NCBI GenBank assembly: GCA_021815825.1
Contig: JAKAZO010000004.1
Coordinates: 1 to 64,000 of the forward strand
Origin: Pseudomonadota bacterium
GTDB lineage: Bacteria; Pseudomonadota; Alphaproteobacteria; Acetobacterales; Acetobacteraceae
DNA length: 64,000 nt
Direction of reading: 5' to 3'
Part shown: piece by piece, positions 1-61,453 of the stretch
How positions within the stretch are numbered: the first letter of the stretch is position 1
How the letters are laid out: each line of letters begins with the position of its first letter
The notes under the pieces: model-generated
What the model was told of the DNA's origin: nothing
Seen by the model: the letters and a program-made list of their open reading frames with translations, nothing else
The model's database searches: none
Program-made: the position numbers and the translations under genes

Positions 1-694
1 TGGTCGTCGCCCCGCCCGGGGCGAATTTGGTGCGTGGCGCCCGCTCGGCGTCACTGAACCGGGCCGGCCAGCCGCGGCCGCCGAACTCCCCATCGCGCTC
101 GAACGGCGCGGACCAGAAATGCGGCCCGTCGCCGATCGTCGCGCTGCCGAGCGCGTTGACCGCGACGATCGCGCCGACCCGATGGCCGCCGCGGGTGAGC
201 TCGCTGGCCGAGCCGAGCCCGCCCTTGACGGTTGCCGTCGTCGCCCCCGTGCCAGCCCCGACGCTGCCGAGATCGAACGCACCGGGCGCGGCCTGCTGCG
301 CCGCTCTCTCGCCGAGTTCGCGATAGGGCGGGTAGCGGCCCCACGCCTTGTCGCCGCCGTTGAGCAGATCGAACAGGATCGCCTGGGCGACGATCGGCAC
401 GCGGGCCGCGCCGAGGGCAAAGCCCCGCCCGGCTGCGCGCAACACCGCCTGGACGCCGCTCGCGGCATCAAGCCCGAACGAGGAGCCGCCGGAGAGGACG
501 ATCGCGTCCACCCGCTCGATCGTGGCACCCGGAGCGAGCGCCGCCGTGTCCCGCTCCCCCGGCGCACCACCGGTCATGGCCACCGATGCGACCGCCGGGT
601 CGTCGAAGAGAATGGCGGTGACACCGGAGCCGAGGACGAAATCGGTCGCGTGGCCAACCGCCAGGCCGGGAATGTCGGAGAGCAGGTTCAGCAT
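1..694 (-). CDS. P1 family (S58) peptidase, DmpA-like, N-terminal part
   Basis: The frame starts at an ATG at 694 and runs off the left edge with no stop, so about 231 N-terminal residues are visible. They begin MLNLLSDIPGLAVGHATD and contain LSGGSSFGLDAASGV and later SVGAGTGATTATVKGGLGSAS. These blocks are characteristic of family S58, which includes the autoprocessing aminopeptidase/amidase DmpA and the BapA beta-aminopeptidases. In that family the proenzyme cuts itself before a catalytic serine or threonine in the C-terminal half, which lies outside this window, so catalytic competence cannot be judged. The gene diverges from an amidohydrolase across a 130-base gap. Substrate is unknown. 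Confidence 0.88.
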   Translation of the reverse strand, partial: MLNLLSDIPGLAVGHATDFVLGSGVTAILFDDPAVASVAMTGGAPGERDTAALAPGATIERVDAIVLSGGSSFGLDAASGVQAVLRAAGRGFALGAARVPIVAQAILFDLLNGGDKAWGRYPPYRELGERAAQQAAPGAFDLGSVGAGTGATTATVKGGLGSASELTRGGHRVGAIVAVNALGSATIGDGPHFWSAPFERDGEFGGRGWPARFSDAERAPRTKFAPGGATT

Positions 695-824
695 CGCCGC
701 AGAATGCCCGCCTCGTCACCTCTGTCCAGCCGCCTTCCAGGTCCAGCTGCACGACGATGGCGGCCTTGACGGCGGCGGGCGGGAAACGCGAGGCTGGCTC
801 CCCACCGAAACGGAGCCGATCGCC

Positions 825-2018
825 ATGGCACTCGCCGCGGGGACCGAGAAGCAGCAGGGCAAACTGGTCATCCGCCATATCGGGCTGATGCTCTCCGGCG
901 CGCTGGAGCGCCCGATCCTCGACGCCGACACGGTCGTCGCCGAGAACGGCCACATCACCGCGCTCGGACGCGAGAAGGACTGCGATACGAGCGGGGCGCG
1001 CATCATCATCGACGCGCATGGCACCGCGCTGGCGCCCGGGCTGATCGACAGTCACGTCCATCCGGTGTTCGGCGACTGGACGCCGCGGCAGAACCAGTTG
1101 GGCTGGGTGGAGAGCTGCCTGCATGGCGGGGTCACCACCATGATCTCGGCCGGTGAGGTCCATCTGCCGGGGCGGCCGCGCGACATTGTCGGACTGAAGG
1201 CGCTGGCGGTCACGGCCCAGCGCGCCTTCAGCGGGTTCCGTCCGGCCGGGGTGAAAATCCATGCCGGCGCGCCGGTGCTGGAGCAAGGCATGGTGGAGGC
1301 CGATTTCGCCGACCTGGCCGCTGCCGGCGTGACGCTGCTGGGCGAGGTTGGGCTCGGGACGGTGAAGGCCGGCGAGGAGGCCGCGCGCATGGTCGGCTGG
1401 GCGCGCAAATACGGGCTGCGCAGCACCATCCATACCGGCGGGCCGAGCGTCCCCGGATCGGGCTATATCGACGCCGACACGGTGCTGGCGGCGGACGCCG
1501 ACGTGATCGGCCACATCAATGGCGGCCACACGGCGCTGCCGCTGAACCAGATCCGCTGCCTCTGCGAGGGTTGCGGCCGCGCGATCGAGATCGTCCATAA
1601 CGGCAACGAGCTGGCCGGGCTATCCGCCCTGCGCTTCGCCCGCGAACTCGGCCAGCTCGACCGGGTCATTCTCGGAACCGACAGTCCGGCCGGCTCCGGC
1701 GTGCAGCCGCTCGGTATCCTGCGCCTGATCGCCTTCCTCGCTTCGTTCGGTGGGGTGCCGGCCGAGCAGGTGATCTGCTGCGCCACCGGCAACACCGCCC
1801 GCCAGCGGGGGCTCGATTGCGGTCTGCTCGAGGTCGGCCGAGCGGCCGATTTCCTGCTCATGGACCGCGCCCAGCACTCCGCCGGGGCCGACCTGCTGGA
1901 GTCCATCGGCAAAGGCGACCTGCCAGGCATCGGCATGGTGATCATCGACGGCATCGTGCGCTGCGGGCGGAGTCGCAACACACCGCCCGCGGACCGCATT
2001 CCCGAGCTGCTCGGTTAG
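825..2018 (+). CDS. Enamidase-like amidohydrolase (6-oxotetrahydronicotinate hydrolase family)
   Basis: This 397-residue metal-dependent amidohydrolase matches, from memory, the enamidase of Eubacterium barkeri along its whole length. That enzyme opens the ring of 1,4,5,6-tetrahydro-6-oxonicotinate to 2-formylglutarate. Visible metal-site motifs are DSHVHP (His77, His79), the bridging-acid region LLGEVGLGT, THTGG-like IHTGG, IGHINGG and GTDSP. HGGVTTMISAGEVH and the C-terminal SRNTPPA block are also shared with enamidase. The ATG at 825 was preferred to in-frame upstream codons because the family begins about here. The stop TAG lies at the edge of a dispersed repeat. No other nicotinate-pathway gene is visible, so the true substrate may be another cyclic amide. 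Confidence 0.85.
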   Translation: MALAAGTEKQQGKLVIRHIGLMLSGALERPILDADTVVAENGHITALGREKDCDTSGARIIIDAHGTALAPGLIDSHVHPVFGDWTPRQNQLGWVESCLHGGVTTMISAGEVHLPGRPRDIVGLKALAVTAQRAFSGFRPAGVKIHAGAPVLEQGMVEADFADLAAAGVTLLGEVGLGTVKAGEEAARMVGWARKYGLRSTIHTGGPSVPGSGYIDADTVLAADADVIGHINGGHTALPLNQIRCLCEGCGRAIEIVHNGNELAGLSALRFARELGQLDRVILGTDSPAGSGVQPLGILRLIAFLASFGGVPAEQVICCATGNTARQRGLDCGLLEVGRAADFLLMDRAQHSAGADLLESIGKGDLPGIGMVIIDGIVRCGRSRNTPPADRIPELLG

Positions 2019-2121
2019 CGTCTGTCCGGCGTAGGTGTAATCACCGTAGCCGGCTAAACAGACGCGCAAACAAAGAGCTGGAGTCTGTCAGGCGCCTCCA
2101 TCCGCGCCTGACAGACTCTAG
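2016..2121. repeat. Two-hairpin dispersed repeat, copy A
   Basis: This element of about 105 bp has a near-identical inverted copy at 60089-60193. It contains two hairpins. The first, 2019-2064, has arms CGTCTGTCCGGC and GCCGGCTAAACAGACG. The second, 2081-2118, has perfect 15-base arms beginning GAGTCTGTCAGGCGC around an 8-base loop. The left end TAG is the stop codon of the enamidase-like gene. The element probably also acts as a transcription terminator between two convergent genes. Confidence 0.85.
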
Positions 2122-2124
2122 GCG

Positions 2125-2562
2125 CTACTTGGTCAGCGCGCCCTCCCTCACCTGGCCGCGGATTTCGCCGCCCTTGTTGGCCGCCGTGTGGATGTTCACG
2201 TACCACTTGCCGGCCACGAGATCGGCCATCTGTTCCTTGGTCAGCTTGGCCTTGGCTTCGACCGGGCTGGTCAGCGGCGCCGGGATCGGCAGCGCCACGC
2301 CGGCGTTGCTGCCAGCGGCCGCGGGGCCGTGGAAATGCGCCGCCAGAGCCGGGCCGGTCAGGTTCATGAAGGTGAGCGTGTAGTGCAGCTCCATCGTCTT
2401 GCTGTCGAGCTCGGCGGTGAGCGTGCCGATGCCCGGGCTGGTGGTGCCCGGCACCTCATGGGCGCCGTCCAGATAAGCGTGGAATTTCAGCATCTCGGCC
2501 CGCGCGGCGGCAGGCAGCAGGAGTGCGGCGGCGGCAGCGGCGAAGAGCGTGCGGCGAAGCAT
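2125..2562 (-). CDS. Secreted CHRD-domain protein
   Basis: The product has 145 residues. A cleavable signal peptide (MLRRTLFAAAAAALLLPAAARA) is followed by one CHRD domain with the usual blocks FHAYLDGAHEVPGT, AHFHGPA and WYVNIHTAANKGGEIRGQV. CHRD domains occur in chordin and in many bacterial exported proteins; the bacterial function is unknown. The ATG at 2562 is preceded by a clear AGGGAGGA ribosome binding site, and the signal peptide fits this start rather than the longer upstream frame. The protein is expected in the periplasm. It converges on the enamidase-like gene and diverges from the RraA-like gene. Confidence 0.9.
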   Translation of the reverse strand: MLRRTLFAAAAAALLLPAAARAEMLKFHAYLDGAHEVPGTTSPGIGTLTAELDSKTMELHYTLTFMNLTGPALAAHFHGPAAAGSNAGVALPIPAPLTSPVEAKAKLTKEQMADLVAGKWYVNIHTAANKGGEIRGQVREGALTK

Positions 2563-2737
2563 GGTTCGTCCTCCCTGACTGTAATCCCCACCCCCAGTAA
2601 GTGCGCATAGGCGACGCATGCGCAAGGAGGCAAATGCCGGGCCCGCACGGCCCGTGCCCGAGGCGTCGATGTCACGATTGAAAGGTGATGGCGCCGGGTG
2701 CATAGCTCAGCCGACATAAGACGGGAAGGGAGACGTC

Positions 2738-48326: not shown

Positions 48327-49097
48327 ATGGATGGCGTTCACGTGGCGCTGGCGCTGCTCGGGGGTGGCGCGGTGGGGTTTTGCCTTGGACTGATCGGCGG
48401 CGGCGGCTCGATCCTGGCGACGCCGCTCCTGCTCTATGTCGTCGGTGTGCCCGAGCCCCATGTGGCGATCGGCACCGGGGCCCTGGCGGTGTCGGTCAAC
48501 GCCTTCGCCAACCTCGTCACCCACGCCCGATCGGGCAATGTGCGCTGGCGGGCGGCGGCGATCTTTGCTTCCGTGGGCGTGCTGGGCGCGAGCATCGGCG
48601 CCAGCCTGGGCAAGGCACTGGACGGCCACCGGCTGCTCTTTCTCTTCGCCATATTGATGATCGCCGTCGGCGCGCTGATGCTGCGGCCGCGACGAGCACG
48701 CGCGGGTGGGGCACCGCCGCCGAACCTGAGCCCCGCGCTGGTGGCGCGGCTGGCCGCCACGGGGCTGGCGGTCGGCGGTCTCTCCGGCTTTTTCGGCATC
48801 GGCGGCGGGTTTCTCATCGTGCCCGGGCTCGTCCTCGCCACGGGGATGCCGATGATCAACGCCATCGGCTCCTCGCTGCTCGCCGTCGGCAGCTTCGGCC
48901 TGACCACGGCGGCGAGCTACGCGCTCTCGGGCCTGGTCGCCTGGACCACCGCCGGCGTGTTCATCGCCGGCGGTGTGCTGGGTGGCTTCGGCGGGCTGCG
49001 CCTGGCCATGCATCTGTCGGTCCAGCGTGACACGCTGAGCCGGGTCTTCGCCGGAGTGATCTTCATCGTCGCCGGCTACATGTTGTATCGCGGCTAG
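48327..49097 (+). CDS. TauE/SafE family sulfite/anion exporter
   Basis: The 256-residue membrane protein has about seven to eight hydrophobic helices in two homologous halves. Each half carries a glycine-rich repeat of the family (GLIGGGGSILATPLLLYVVG and GFFGIGGGFLIVPGLVLATG). TauE/SafE proteins export sulfite, sulfoacetate or similar anions; the substrate here is not evident. AAGGAGA lies upstream of the ATG at 48327. Confidence 0.92.
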   Translation: MDGVHVALALLGGGAVGFCLGLIGGGGSILATPLLLYVVGVPEPHVAIGTGALAVSVNAFANLVTHARSGNVRWRAAAIFASVGVLGASIGASLGKALDGHRLLFLFAILMIAVGALMLRPRRARAGGAPPPNLSPALVARLAATGLAVGGLSGFFGIGGGFLIVPGLVLATGMPMINAIGSSLLAVGSFGLTTAASYALSGLVAWTTAGVFIAGGVLGGFGGLRLAMHLSVQRDTLSRVFAGVIFIVAGYMLYRG

Positions 49098-58942: not shown

Positions 58943-58971
58943 TTGACCCGGTCCGCGCCTGTGCCTACCTG
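58943..58971 (+). promoter_or_regulatory. Weak candidate hrcA promoter
   Basis: TTGACC (58943-58948) is followed after 17 bases by TACCTG. The -35 is good and the -10 poor. No CIRCE-like inverted repeat was found in this interval. Confidence 0.25.
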
Positions 58972-58996
58972 GAAGCTGAAGTCCTTCCATCCGGCG

Positions 58997-60091
58997 ATGC
59001 CCATGGACCAGCCTGCCAAGCCCCGTCCTGTCCGTCATCCGCTCCGGCCCACCACGCCGGCGCCGGTGCTCGACCCGCGCGCGGCGGCGGTGCTGCGCGA
59101 GATCGTCGAGCAGTATGTCGAGACCGGGGAGCCGGTTGGCAGCCGCACTCTCTCGCGTCGCCTGCCGATCGCACTGTCCCCGGCGACGATCCGCAATGTC
59201 ATGGCCGATCTCACCGATTCGGGGTTGCTCTTTGCGCCGCACACCTCGGCGGGCCGGTTGCCGACGGATCTGGGGCTGCGGCTGTTCGTCGACGGGTTGC
59301 TCCAGTTCGGCGAGCTCGGCGAGGACGAGCGCAGCGCCATCAGCGCCGCGCTGGAGGCGAAGGGGCGCAGCCTGGAGGATACGCTGGCGGAGGCGTCCTC
59401 CATGCTCTCCGGCCTGTCCGCCGCCGCCGGCCTCGTGCTGGCGCCGAAATCCGAGGGGCCGCTGCGGCATATCGAGTTCGTCGCCCTCGGCGCCAACCGG
59501 GCCCTGGTGGTTCTGGTCGGCGCCGATGGCCAGGTCGAGAACCGGGTGATCGAGACCCCGCCCGGCGTGCCGCCTTCGGCGCTGGTGCAGGCGGGCAACT
59601 ACCTCAATGCCCGCCTCTCGGGGCGGGGGCTGGCCGAACTGCACGCGCTGGTGGCGAACGAGATCGCCGCCAATCGGACCGAGCTCGATGCGCTGGCGAC
59701 CCAGGTGGTCGAGGCCGGGCTGGCGACCTGGACCGGGGAAGGGCGCGGCGGTTCGCTGATCGTCCGCGGCCAGGCCCGCCTTCTCGCCGATGTCACCCAG
59801 ATCGAGGCGCTCTCGACCATCCAGCTCCTGTTCGAGCGGCTCGAGCGGCAGGAGACGATGCTGCGCCTGCTGGAGCTGGCTGAAAACTCGGACGGGGTTC
59901 GGATCTTCATCGGCGCCGAGAGCGGCGCGTTCGGCGCCGCCGGGCTGACGACGGTGGTCGCGCCGGCCCGCAATGCGGCCAACCGCATCGTCGGCGCGAT
60001 CGGGGTGATCGGGCCGACTCGGATCAATTACGGGCGCATCATCCCGGTGGTGGACTACACGGCGCGCGTCATCGGCCGGCTTCTCGGCTAG
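58997..60091 (+). CDS. hrcA: Heat-inducible transcription repressor HrcA
   Basis: The 364-residue repressor of class I heat-shock genes has an N-terminal winged helix (LREIVEQYVETGEPVGSRTLSRRLPIALSPATIRNVMADL). HTSAGRLPTDLGLRLFVDGLL and the C-terminal VIGPTRINYGRIIPVVDYTARVIGRLL are diagnostic. Its usual partner genes grpE and dnaK are not visible on this side. ATGs at 58997 and 59003 are both plausible. The stop TAG lies at the edge of a dispersed repeat. Confidence 0.96.
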   Translation: MPMDQPAKPRPVRHPLRPTTPAPVLDPRAAAVLREIVEQYVETGEPVGSRTLSRRLPIALSPATIRNVMADLTDSGLLFAPHTSAGRLPTDLGLRLFVDGLLQFGELGEDERSAISAALEAKGRSLEDTLAEASSMLSGLSAAAGLVLAPKSEGPLRHIEFVALGANRALVVLVGADGQVENRVIETPPGVPPSALVQAGNYLNARLSGRGLAELHALVANEIAANRTELDALATQVVEAGLATWTGEGRGGSLIVRGQARLLADVTQIEALSTIQLLFERLERQETMLRLLELAENSDGVRIFIGAESGAFGAAGLTTVVAPARNAANRIVGAIGVIGPTRINYGRIIPVVDYTARVIGRLLG

Positions 60092-60193
60092 AGTCTGTCC
60101 GGCGCGGATGGAGGCGCCCGACAGACTCCAGCTCTTTGTTTGCGCGTCTGTTGAGCCGGCTATGGTGACTCCACCTACGCCGGACAGACGCTA
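60089..60193. repeat. Two-hairpin dispersed repeat, copy B (inverted)
   Basis: This is the inverted counterpart of the element at 2016-2121. The GAGTCTGTC hairpin spans 60091-60128 and the CGTCTGT hairpin 60145-60190. The two elements differ at only a few positions. Here both flanking genes, hrcA on the plus strand and cfa on the minus strand, use TAG triplets at the element's two ends as stop codons. Confidence 0.85.
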
Positions 60194-61453
60194 GCGACCG
60201 GCGGAGGCAGGCGCCGCCGCTTCATGGCGCACCGTCCGTTCGGTCTCGAACATATAGTCGCGTGTCAGCGGCGTTGCGGTGAGCGTGCGGGTAAGCTGGA
60301 GCTGGAAATTCATGTGGCCCTCCCGGCGGAACGCGAGCTCCGAGCCGGCGAGGTAGAATTCGAACATGCGGCAGAAGCGCTCGTCGTAGAGCGCGGCGAT
60401 GGCGTCGCGATTGGCGGCGAAGCGGCGGCGCCAGTGGCGCAGGGTTTCGGCGTAGTGCAAGCGCAGGACCTCGATGTCGGTCACGAACAGCCCCTGCCGC
60501 TCGACCACCGGCAGCACCTCGCTCAGCGCCGGGGAATAGCCGCCGGGGAAAATATACCTGCGCAGCCACGGATTGGTCGTGCCCGGCCCGTCCGAACGGC
60601 CGATCGAATGGACCAGCGCCACCCCGTCCGCGGCGAGGCAGCGCCGGATGGCGGCGAAGAAGCTGCGATAATGGCCGACGCCGACATGCTCGAACATGCC
60701 GACGGAGACGATGCGGTCGAAGGTCTGGTGCATCGCCCGATAGTCCATCAACTCGAAGCGGACACGGTCGGCGAGCCCCTCCGCCTCCGCCCGCTCCCGT
60801 GCCGCGGCGAGCTGCTCGGCCGAGAGCGTGATGCCCGTGACGCGGGCGCCGAACTCGCGCGCCAGCGTCAGCGCCAGTCCGCCCCAGCCACAGCCGATGT
60901 CGAGCACCGAGAGATCCGGTCGGTCCAGCCGCAGTTTGGCGGCGAGATGGTACTTCTTGGCGCGCTGGGCATCCTCCAGCGTCTCCAACCCGGTGGGGAA
61001 ATAGGCGCAGGAATATTGCCGGTCCCGGTCCAGAAACAGGCTGTAGAGCCGTCCATTGAGATCGTAATGGTGGGCGACGTTTCGCCGCGCCCGGCCGATG
61101 GAATTGAACTGGGCGAGCCGGCGGATGATCCAGGCGACGCCGTTGCGCAGCCGGTAGAACGGATGTGCCGCCTCGCTCTCCGCGAGGTTGGCGACGAGGA
61201 CATCGAGCAGCTCATAGATGCCGCCCTCGTCCGGCGCCAGGCCGCCATCCATGTAGCCCTCGCCGAGGCCCAGTGCCGGAGTGACCACCAAGCGCCGGAC
61301 CGTGCGCCAATCGCGCAACAGCAAGCCGGCCGAAGGTCCGCCGCCGGGCTCGACCCGCCCCTGATAAAGGGTGGTCGTCCCATCCGGCCAACGAACCGAA
61401 AGCCGGCCGACGACGACGAGACGCCGCAGAATTCGATCAAGAACCGGTCGCAT
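60191..61453 (-). CDS. cfa: Cyclopropane-fatty-acyl-phospholipid synthase
   Basis: The 420-residue SAM-dependent methyltransferase cyclopropanates unsaturated phospholipid acyl chains. An N-terminal lipid-binding region (GLGEGYMDGGLAPDEGGIYELLDVL) precedes the catalytic domain with NVAHHYDLNGRLYSLFLD, SCAYF, VLDIGCGWGGLALTLAREFG and FIFPGGYSP-like IFPGGYSPAL. FEFYLAGSELAFRREGHMNFQLQL ends the protein. Membrane modification of this kind is common in acid-tolerant bacteria. Its stop codon comes from the adjacent dispersed repeat. Confidence 0.95.
   Translation of the reverse strand: MRPVLDRILRRLVVVGRLSVRWPDGTTTLYQGRVEPGGGPSAGLLLRDWRTVRRLVVTPALGLGEGYMDGGLAPDEGGIYELLDVLVANLAESEAAHPFYRLRNGVAWIIRRLAQFNSIGRARRNVAHHYDLNGRLYSLFLDRDRQYSCAYFPTGLETLEDAQRAKKYHLAAKLRLDRPDLSVLDIGCGWGGLALTLAREFGARVTGITLSAEQLAAARERAEAEGLADRVRFELMDYRAMHQTFDRIVSVGMFEHVGVGHYRSFFAAIRRCLAADGVALVHSIGRSDGPGTTNPWLRRYIFPGGYSPALSEVLPVVERQGLFVTDIEVLRLHYAETLRHWRRRFAANRDAIAALYDERFCRMFEFYLAGSELAFRREGHMNFQLQLTRTLTATPLTRDYMFETERTVRHEAAAPASAGR

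Follow-up and report, generated by a model that had tools for sequence, protein, structure and literature searches.

Why should three of the four genes flanking two copies of a palindromic repeat end exactly on a TAG at the repeat's edge, and is it the repeat that provides these stops? The question arises in the window, by which we mean the whole 64,000-nucleotide stretch analysed here, part of an acetobacterial draft genome of 3.20 Mb in 150 contigs (G000). An earlier note, made from the letters alone, had described an element that recurs in inverted orientation at the other end of the window, with two adjacent hairpins in each copy, and with an enamidase-like gene, hrcA and cfa ending on its TAG triplets. 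So far as description goes, this holds: the two copies are 94% identical, the paired hairpins are recovered both by single-strand folding and by pairing statistics over many copies, and the three gene ends lie where they were said to lie (Table 1). The fold energy of copy 1 is -38.1 kcal/mol against a shuffle mean of -14.3 (z -9.9) and that of copy 2 is -35.5 kcal/mol against -17.0 (z -7.4), with 0 of 200 shuffles as low in either case. The element, 106 bp with its ends, consists of hairpin 1, the linker GCAAACAAAGAG and hairpin 2 in this order, and hairpin 1 is built of outer arms GCGTCTGT...ACAGACGC, then CCGGC...GCCGG, then an inner GGTG-loop-CACC. The hairpin 1 loop of copy 1 reads TAATC and lacks the GANTC site typical of the family at this place.

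Table 1. Positions in the window of the two element copies, their parts and the flanking genes
Feature	Position	Strand	Remark
Copy 1, match to model R1	2016..2121	+	121.5 bits
Copy 1, TA duplication	2016-2017 and 2119-2120	+	
Copy 1, unit	2018-2118	+	101 bp
Copy 1, hairpin 1	2018..2065	+	
Copy 1, linker GCAAACAAAGAG	2066..2077	+	well conserved family-wide (alignments A1, A3)
Copy 1, hairpin 2	2078..2121	+	18-pair stem; GAGTC at 2081, GACTC at 2114
Copy 2 (inverted), match to model R1	60088..60193	-	113.0 bits
Copy 2, TA duplication	60089-60090 and 60192-60193	-	
Copy 2, unit	60091-60191	-	101 bp
Copy 2, hairpin 1	60144..60191	-	GANTC in loop; GACTC on + at 60167
Copy 2, linker	60132..60143	-	
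Copy 2, hairpin 2	60088..60131	-	17 pairs and one mismatch; GAGTC at 60091, GACTC at 60124
Amidohydrolase ORF (enamidase-like)	348..2018	+	start codon provisional; stop TAG = target TA + element G
CHRD-domain gene	2125..2703	-	stop 3 bp outside copy 1
hrcA	58943..60091	+	stop TAG at copy 2 edge
cfa/CMAS-type methyltransferase	60191..61453	-	stop TAG (60191-60193) at other copy 2 edge

Copies in the genome, the family and the class

The expectation of many copies genome-wide, forming a MITE-like family often placed at gene ends, is supported by recurrence through G000 and by further copies in its relatives. A 126-bp query gave 20 matches in G000 at E<=0.001, of which the first 14 are long copies (at least 82 bp, 76-100% identity) and the other six are fragments, reverse-strand self-matches or members of a second subfamily. 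With the same threshold the element is present in 6 of 60 genomes, G000 included, and its exact core occurs on nine contig stretches of the metagenome-assembled genomes ‘Acetobacteraceae bacterium clean415’, ‘SKS5.bin74’ and ‘ZJ1.bin15’. The second subfamily in G000 is represented by L016 (G000:C119:7513-7617) and L017 (G000:C7:6225-6329), whose stem ends differ (GCGTGATGACC) and whose linker and loop are the same as those of the window element; both are full-length matches to R1, at 71.3 and 76.1 bits. Another arrangement is seen at L065 (G002:C28:125598-125828), where hairpin 1 and the linker form a 63-bp unit present in three tandem copies joined at CTAG, with a single hairpin 2.

Two covariance models find relatives in genera too diverged for plain alignment. 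Model R1 was built from alignment A1, which holds 39 of 50 copies from four genomes, the other 11 having been excluded because their ends were damaged or shifted or because the sites were orthologous (for L059 and L063 the exclusion was unnecessary); model R2 was built from alignment A3, which holds 49 copies from 16 genomes, hand-picked for diversity. Within the family, R1 has matches in 55 of the 120 genomes and in 46 of the 102 genera, frequently 20-32 per genome with 32 candidates scored (28 such matches in G000). In the class, R2 under strict filters has matches in 23 of 289 genomes, and the fixed linker pattern AAACAAAGAGCTAGAG, which is too strict, occurs in just 2 of the 289, each count including G000. 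On plasmid stretches, five of which were picked from blastn matches for R2 (R. etli p42a and an Ochrobactrum plasmid among them), R2 scores 80.8 bits in Azospirillum ramasamyi, 44.1 in R. phaseoli and 42.1 in Asticcacaulis excentricus, with no match on the Ochrobactrum stretch. By blastn, the window element has no match among phages and four partial matches among plasmids (E 0.006-0.9), and the L176 and L016 elements as queries gave one and nine weak partial matches, respectively. In 200 of the 1,683 kb of S. meliloti pSymB, a script found neither the linker nor the TAGAGC hairpin, R1 reached at most 19.8 bits and R2 found nothing at E<=0.01.

Empty sites, insertion target and candidate movers

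For 19 filled sites the two flanks were joined and used as queries against congeners, in a first set of five G000 sites (joined flanks were printed for 15) against G001 and G002, and a second set of 14 sites against G000, G001 and G002. The copy 1 site is empty in G002 and carries a diverged element in G001. In the first set, L001 is empty and contiguous in G002; the L003 flanks adjoin in G002 at 75% and the L004 flanks lie 10 bp apart in both genomes, the flanks of these two having also diverged; those of L002 and L005 are not contiguous in G001 or G002. In the second set, the flanks of nine sites adjoin, with no element between them, in one or more of the genomes (L049, L050, L053, L056, L059, L062, L067, L072 and L006). 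The element at L055 is present in both G001 and G002, and no contiguous empty match was found in the three genomes for L057, L065 or L007, the G000 flanks of L065 being ~140 bp apart with other sequence between them. At L054 (G001:C16) the element sits inside an IS5-type transposase ORF, at the TA of a TAC codon, and its flanks are contiguous, at 73-83%, in other copies of the transposase gene, a paralogous empty site. R1 finds the element in 0 of the 12 empty loci run.

What the junctions look like is informative about the target. A single TA, with spacing within one base of the expectation, remains at L001, L006 (in two genomes), L050, L056, L059, L062, L067 and L072, with substitutions at L001, L050, L059, L062 and L072; the spacing misfits the one-TA prediction at L049 (~16 bases shorter) and L053 (26 longer). 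At L067 the filled site reads CCGCC-TA-[unit]-TA-TATATCAG and the empty site in G000 reads CCGCC-TA-TATATCAG; at L056, filled TTCAC-TA-[unit]-TA-GCGCG corresponds to TTCAC-TA-GCGCG in G002; and at L006 the right side, TA-CGCGTCC, is the same as in G001. Duplication of TA only can thus be read on both sides at L067 (versus L250) and L056 (versus L248), and on the right side at L006 (versus L249). Since the base after the right TA at L067 and L006 is that of the empty site and not G, the duplication comprises TA rather than TAG or CTAG. Across the 50 copies, the left TA is present in 38, of which 34 have C or T before it, and the right TA in 35, of which 33 have G or A after it. The insertion target is YTA(R), with TA duplicated, and the precise empty sites in congeners establish the element as mobile and non-autonomous. 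Taken as a whole, our findings are, we are fairly confident, best explained by non-autonomous mobile DNA of the CIR kind, discussed below, which duplicates TA and leaves gene ends unchanged.

Several loci show more than one repeat at or near such a site. The L067 site is filled also in G001, where two further CTAG-bounded hairpins follow (L276, G001:C89), the loop of one of them containing GGAATC; CTAG junctions seem to be places where modules build up. At the gene end where G000 has a window-type element (L002), G002 has an L016-type element (L092, L090) and another hairpin at the other flank, and different repeats seem to use one target. In the window itself a TAG stop at 49095-49097 is followed, up to 49310, by CTAG-bounded hairpin-like repeats (TGGTCCGATGCC..., GAGCACG..., GAGCGAC...), and similar motifs adjoin elements in G001 and G002. 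At the copy 1 site of G001 (L093, L091) a diverged element occupies the same stop codon with an insertion sequence behind it; either the element's insertion is common to both genomes and has since diverged or undergone conversion, or the site was hit a second time.

That insertion sequence, with GGTCCTGTGGAC ends, is also found at L060 and, elsewhere, at L121; it is a resident IS5-type IS, which we take to be IS427-like. Could the element be a MITE of this IS? The IS, of ~0.85 kb, has CTAG junctions and lies at element ends at two G001 loci. A parallel exists in Brucella, where IS711 duplicates the TA of YTAR and is reported to prefer Bru-RS palindromes (PMC2266754). Yet the ends of IS and element share little beyond TAG plus CTGT at one offset, too short a stretch for the IS to be called the parent, and a common target would be possible; G000 has one PF13340 match, at which a script found no GGTCCTGTGGAC-type ends. 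Nor did a scripted search of 13 PF13340 loci in four genomes find an autonomous relative with the element's ends. We regard parentage by this IS as doubtful, while giving it more weight than the other alternatives below.

Paired arms and gene ends

The pairing of both hairpins is maintained through sequence change. Among the 39 copies of A1, standard pairs fill 95.8% of pair cells, and changes on both sides occur in 13 of 29 pairs, compared with 28.6-38.3% paired and 1-5 such pairs in register-slid controls. Among the 49 copies from 16 genomes, which were found with the structure model and whose kinship qualifies the pair counts, pairing is retained in 95.6% of cells and both partners have changed in 26 of 33 pairs (288 cells), compared with 23.2-46.6% paired, 4-13 pairs and 8-40 two-sided cells in the controls. 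In G017 the outer ends are just 0.54 identical and each hairpin is 0.83-0.94 complementary, so that the best-kept feature is the individual hairpin and not the two ends as a pair. The 5' and 3' outer arms are 0.52-0.97 identical depending on the group, with a mean of 0.69 within and 0.57 between groups.

Compensated changes of this sort might arise from copying of one arm onto the other during replication or transposition, instead of by selection. Within one genome hairpin 2 varies among copies yet remains palindromic, as is seen among the copies of G006 (L152, L195-L200) and G344 (L165-L174), and distinct compensated states outnumber mismatched ones in G006 (12 v 6), G344 (17 v 13), G001 (7 v 5), G355 (5 v 2) and G376 (3 v 2). 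The order is reversed, however, in four of the nine genomes counted, namely G000 (7 v 14), G002 (2 v 5), G017 (7 v 18) and G393 (0 v 7), and selection on pairing predicts similar patterns. We consider it rather unlikely that arm-to-arm copying accounts for the compensation.

Does the element then supply the stops, as had been proposed? Here the comparison with relatives speaks against the earlier note, because the same codon ends all three genes in relatives lacking this element: the G002 orthologue of the amidohydrolase, without the element, ends at the same codon with TAA; hrcA has TAG at the same codon in G001 and G002, in both of which other repeats follow; and cfa has TGA at the same codon in G001. 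As the TA belongs to the target, the element gives at most the third base of the stop, G. The following scheme would account for the coincidence. A transposase, presumably acting in trans, would insert the 101-bp unit 5'-GCGTC...GACTC-3' at YTA(R), duplicating TA, and because the unit starts with G and ends with C, TA-G reads outward on both sides. Insertion at the TA of a TAA or TAG stop, or of overlapping convergent stops (CTAG), would then leave TAG at the old position, and the stops of hrcA and cfa probably overlapped in this manner before copy 2 arrived. Depletion of YTAR, together with the occurrence of part of the remainder at stops, would make gene ends frequent targets, and neutrality is perhaps the reason for the location there. 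YTAR is indeed scarcer in the window than expected by a factor of about ten (35 against 382; CTAG 17 against 182), and by a crude ORF set 7 of the 35 sites lie at stops, 17 between ORFs and 11 inside them; with 7 of 35 at stops, gene-end targets are not the majority. Relatives without the element have TGA at the same place at L049 and L053 as well (the L053 gene was missed by the gene caller), so that, with cfa, a switch between TAA and TGA must be assumed at these sites; a TAA present when the element inserted would imply one transition.

Copy 2 lies between convergent hrcA and cfa, genes that are on different contigs in G001 and G002, both of which have another gene behind hrcA. The copy (60088-60193) thus sits at a site of gene-order difference from these genomes and may mark a rearrangement point.

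An alternative would make the element a gene-end device, a stop plus terminator or an mRNA 3' stabiliser, kept by selection at the RNA level. The strong compensatory changes fit this reading, and a crude gene caller takes the edge TAG or TAA for a stop in 15 of 50 copies, with 5 of 13 in G000; nor is the pattern peculiar to G000, given that in Asticcacaulis the annotated galB gene stops at the first TAG of a related element. But many other copies adjoin gene starts by the same crude caller, copies are present or absent between congeners with the protein end unchanged in the cases examined, and copy 1 has no U-tract terminator: the terminator proposed earlier did not materialise, a scan of 1900-2250 giving 0 terminator-like sites. 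Mismatches in hairpin 2 were of interest in the same connection. G-T exceeds A-C 68 to 29 in raw counts, and with repeated states counted once the figures become 34 to 23 (p 0.18), so that the mismatches show no clear preference for pairing as RNA over pairing as DNA, and we dropped selection on the RNA strand as a candidate. Overall, a gene-end device seems quite improbable.

The least probable reading by far, in our judgement, is that of a REP/BIME family, palindromic units moved by a RAYT (Y1) transposase: the element is palindromic, multi-copy and mostly intergenic, and L065 has its three tandem hairpin 1 units, but Y1_Tnp, which such a family leads one to expect, was found in 0 of six carrier genomes (drafts, 86-98% completeness) compared with 5 of 14 control genomes, which leaves this part of the earlier proposal unsupported, and REPs are characterised as units of 20-40 bp that carry an unpaired GTAG or CGTC at one end (PMC3733652), unlike a 101-bp unit with CGTC paired in the stem and TA duplicated.

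Relation to CIR and the GANTC site

Among known repeats, the closest description is that of the CcrM-associated intergenic repeats (CIR) of Caulobacter, reportedly first presented by Chen and Shapiro in 2003. In the sections of a 2007 review that deal with them, CIR of Caulobacter and Brucella are intergenic repeats of ~110 bp with two long inverted repeats and a linker, with GANTC at the terminal loop of one stem-loop and TA at the termini; its table scores them ‘-’ for TIR and ‘?’ for TSD, as partly MITE-like and of unexplained mobility (PMC2229807). They also appear in a list of MITEs (PMC10969869).

Our element agrees with this description as a multi-copy, ~110-bp intergenic repeat (14 long copies; L054, in a transposase ORF, is an exception), with two arms joined by a linker according to pairing and folds, with GANTC in the loop of one arm in 92 of 111 copies (copy 2 with it, copy 1 without), and with TA at its termini in the proportions given above. 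Its hosts carry the RAMA domain PF18755, which we take to stand for CcrM, in 4 of 4 genomes, whereas 1 of 14 controls, a Caulobacter, matches; the Asticcacaulis copy mentioned above likewise comes from the Caulobacteraceae. It departs from the description in that TA duplication, a MITE feature scored ‘?’ in 2007, is demonstrated here, in that some copies abut gene ends exactly, and in the position of L054. We file the element as a new acetobacterial subfamily of CIR, a placement made by the published descriptions, whose features fit, and not by the published CIR1-4 consensus.

Other repeats resemble it to varying degrees. The palindromic Bru-RS1 and Bru-RS2 of Brucella, given as 103 and 106 bp (PMC10800456), are by description alike in length and palindromes, and Bru-RS is the reported target of an IS of the TA/YTAR type. 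The one match that touches Brucella is sub-threshold, that of hairpin 2 of L049 (1981-2030, minus strand) to Rfam BASRCI27, a Brucella sRNA, at 27.7 bits (gathering 59.8); in all, seven loci run against Rfam 15 gave 12 matches at E<=5, none above gathering. RIME of Rhizobium is said to have been reported by Osteras in 1995 as a repeat of ~108 bp with two palindromes, and R2 matches, full-length at 50.8 bits, a 107-bp repeat on R. etli p42a that is presumably RIME1; a class relative of the latter, L231, has matches in 159 plasmid records, 145 of them from Rhizobium and 59 with at least 80% of the query. RUP of Streptococcus pneumoniae (107 bp) and Correia share TA ends and target duplication with our element; as the review passages on them have it, their stem comes from end-to-end pairing and the ends of RUP resemble those of IS630-Spn1 (PMC2229807), unlike the two separate arms, with no known parent, found here. 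The repeat strings as text had no match in openly licensed papers.

The GANTC site deserves separate consideration. Of 111 copies, 92 have it in the hairpin 1 loop, 82 at a second hairpin 1 site and 106 at one or other of the two (the set being A1 plus 72 of 73 further matches, the second L215 match omitted; 109 passed a hairpin 2 filter). In the window as a whole GANTC is depleted, at 86 against 182 expected, which would favour a selected site. We rejected this candidate nonetheless: changes from GAATC number 2, 7, 8, 10 and 5 by position in the 111 copies, and with N no freer than its neighbours, selection for methylation is unsupported by the GANTC variation. One may still speculate, by analogy, that CIR transposition is timed by the cell cycle, in that CcrM-methylated GANTC in the hairpin 1 loop and beside the TA ends would hold the element and the hemimethylated state after replication would free it; we think this improbable. 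Dam acts comparably on IS10 and Tn5. If it were true, methylation timing would explain the class-wide retention, in a mobile repeat, of a site that the genome avoids.

Irrespective of this, a widespread alphaproteobacterial repeat gains a mobility signature in the precise TA duplication at empty sites, and its TA-G ends offer a simple account of the stop codons that repeats of this sort appear to bring with them.
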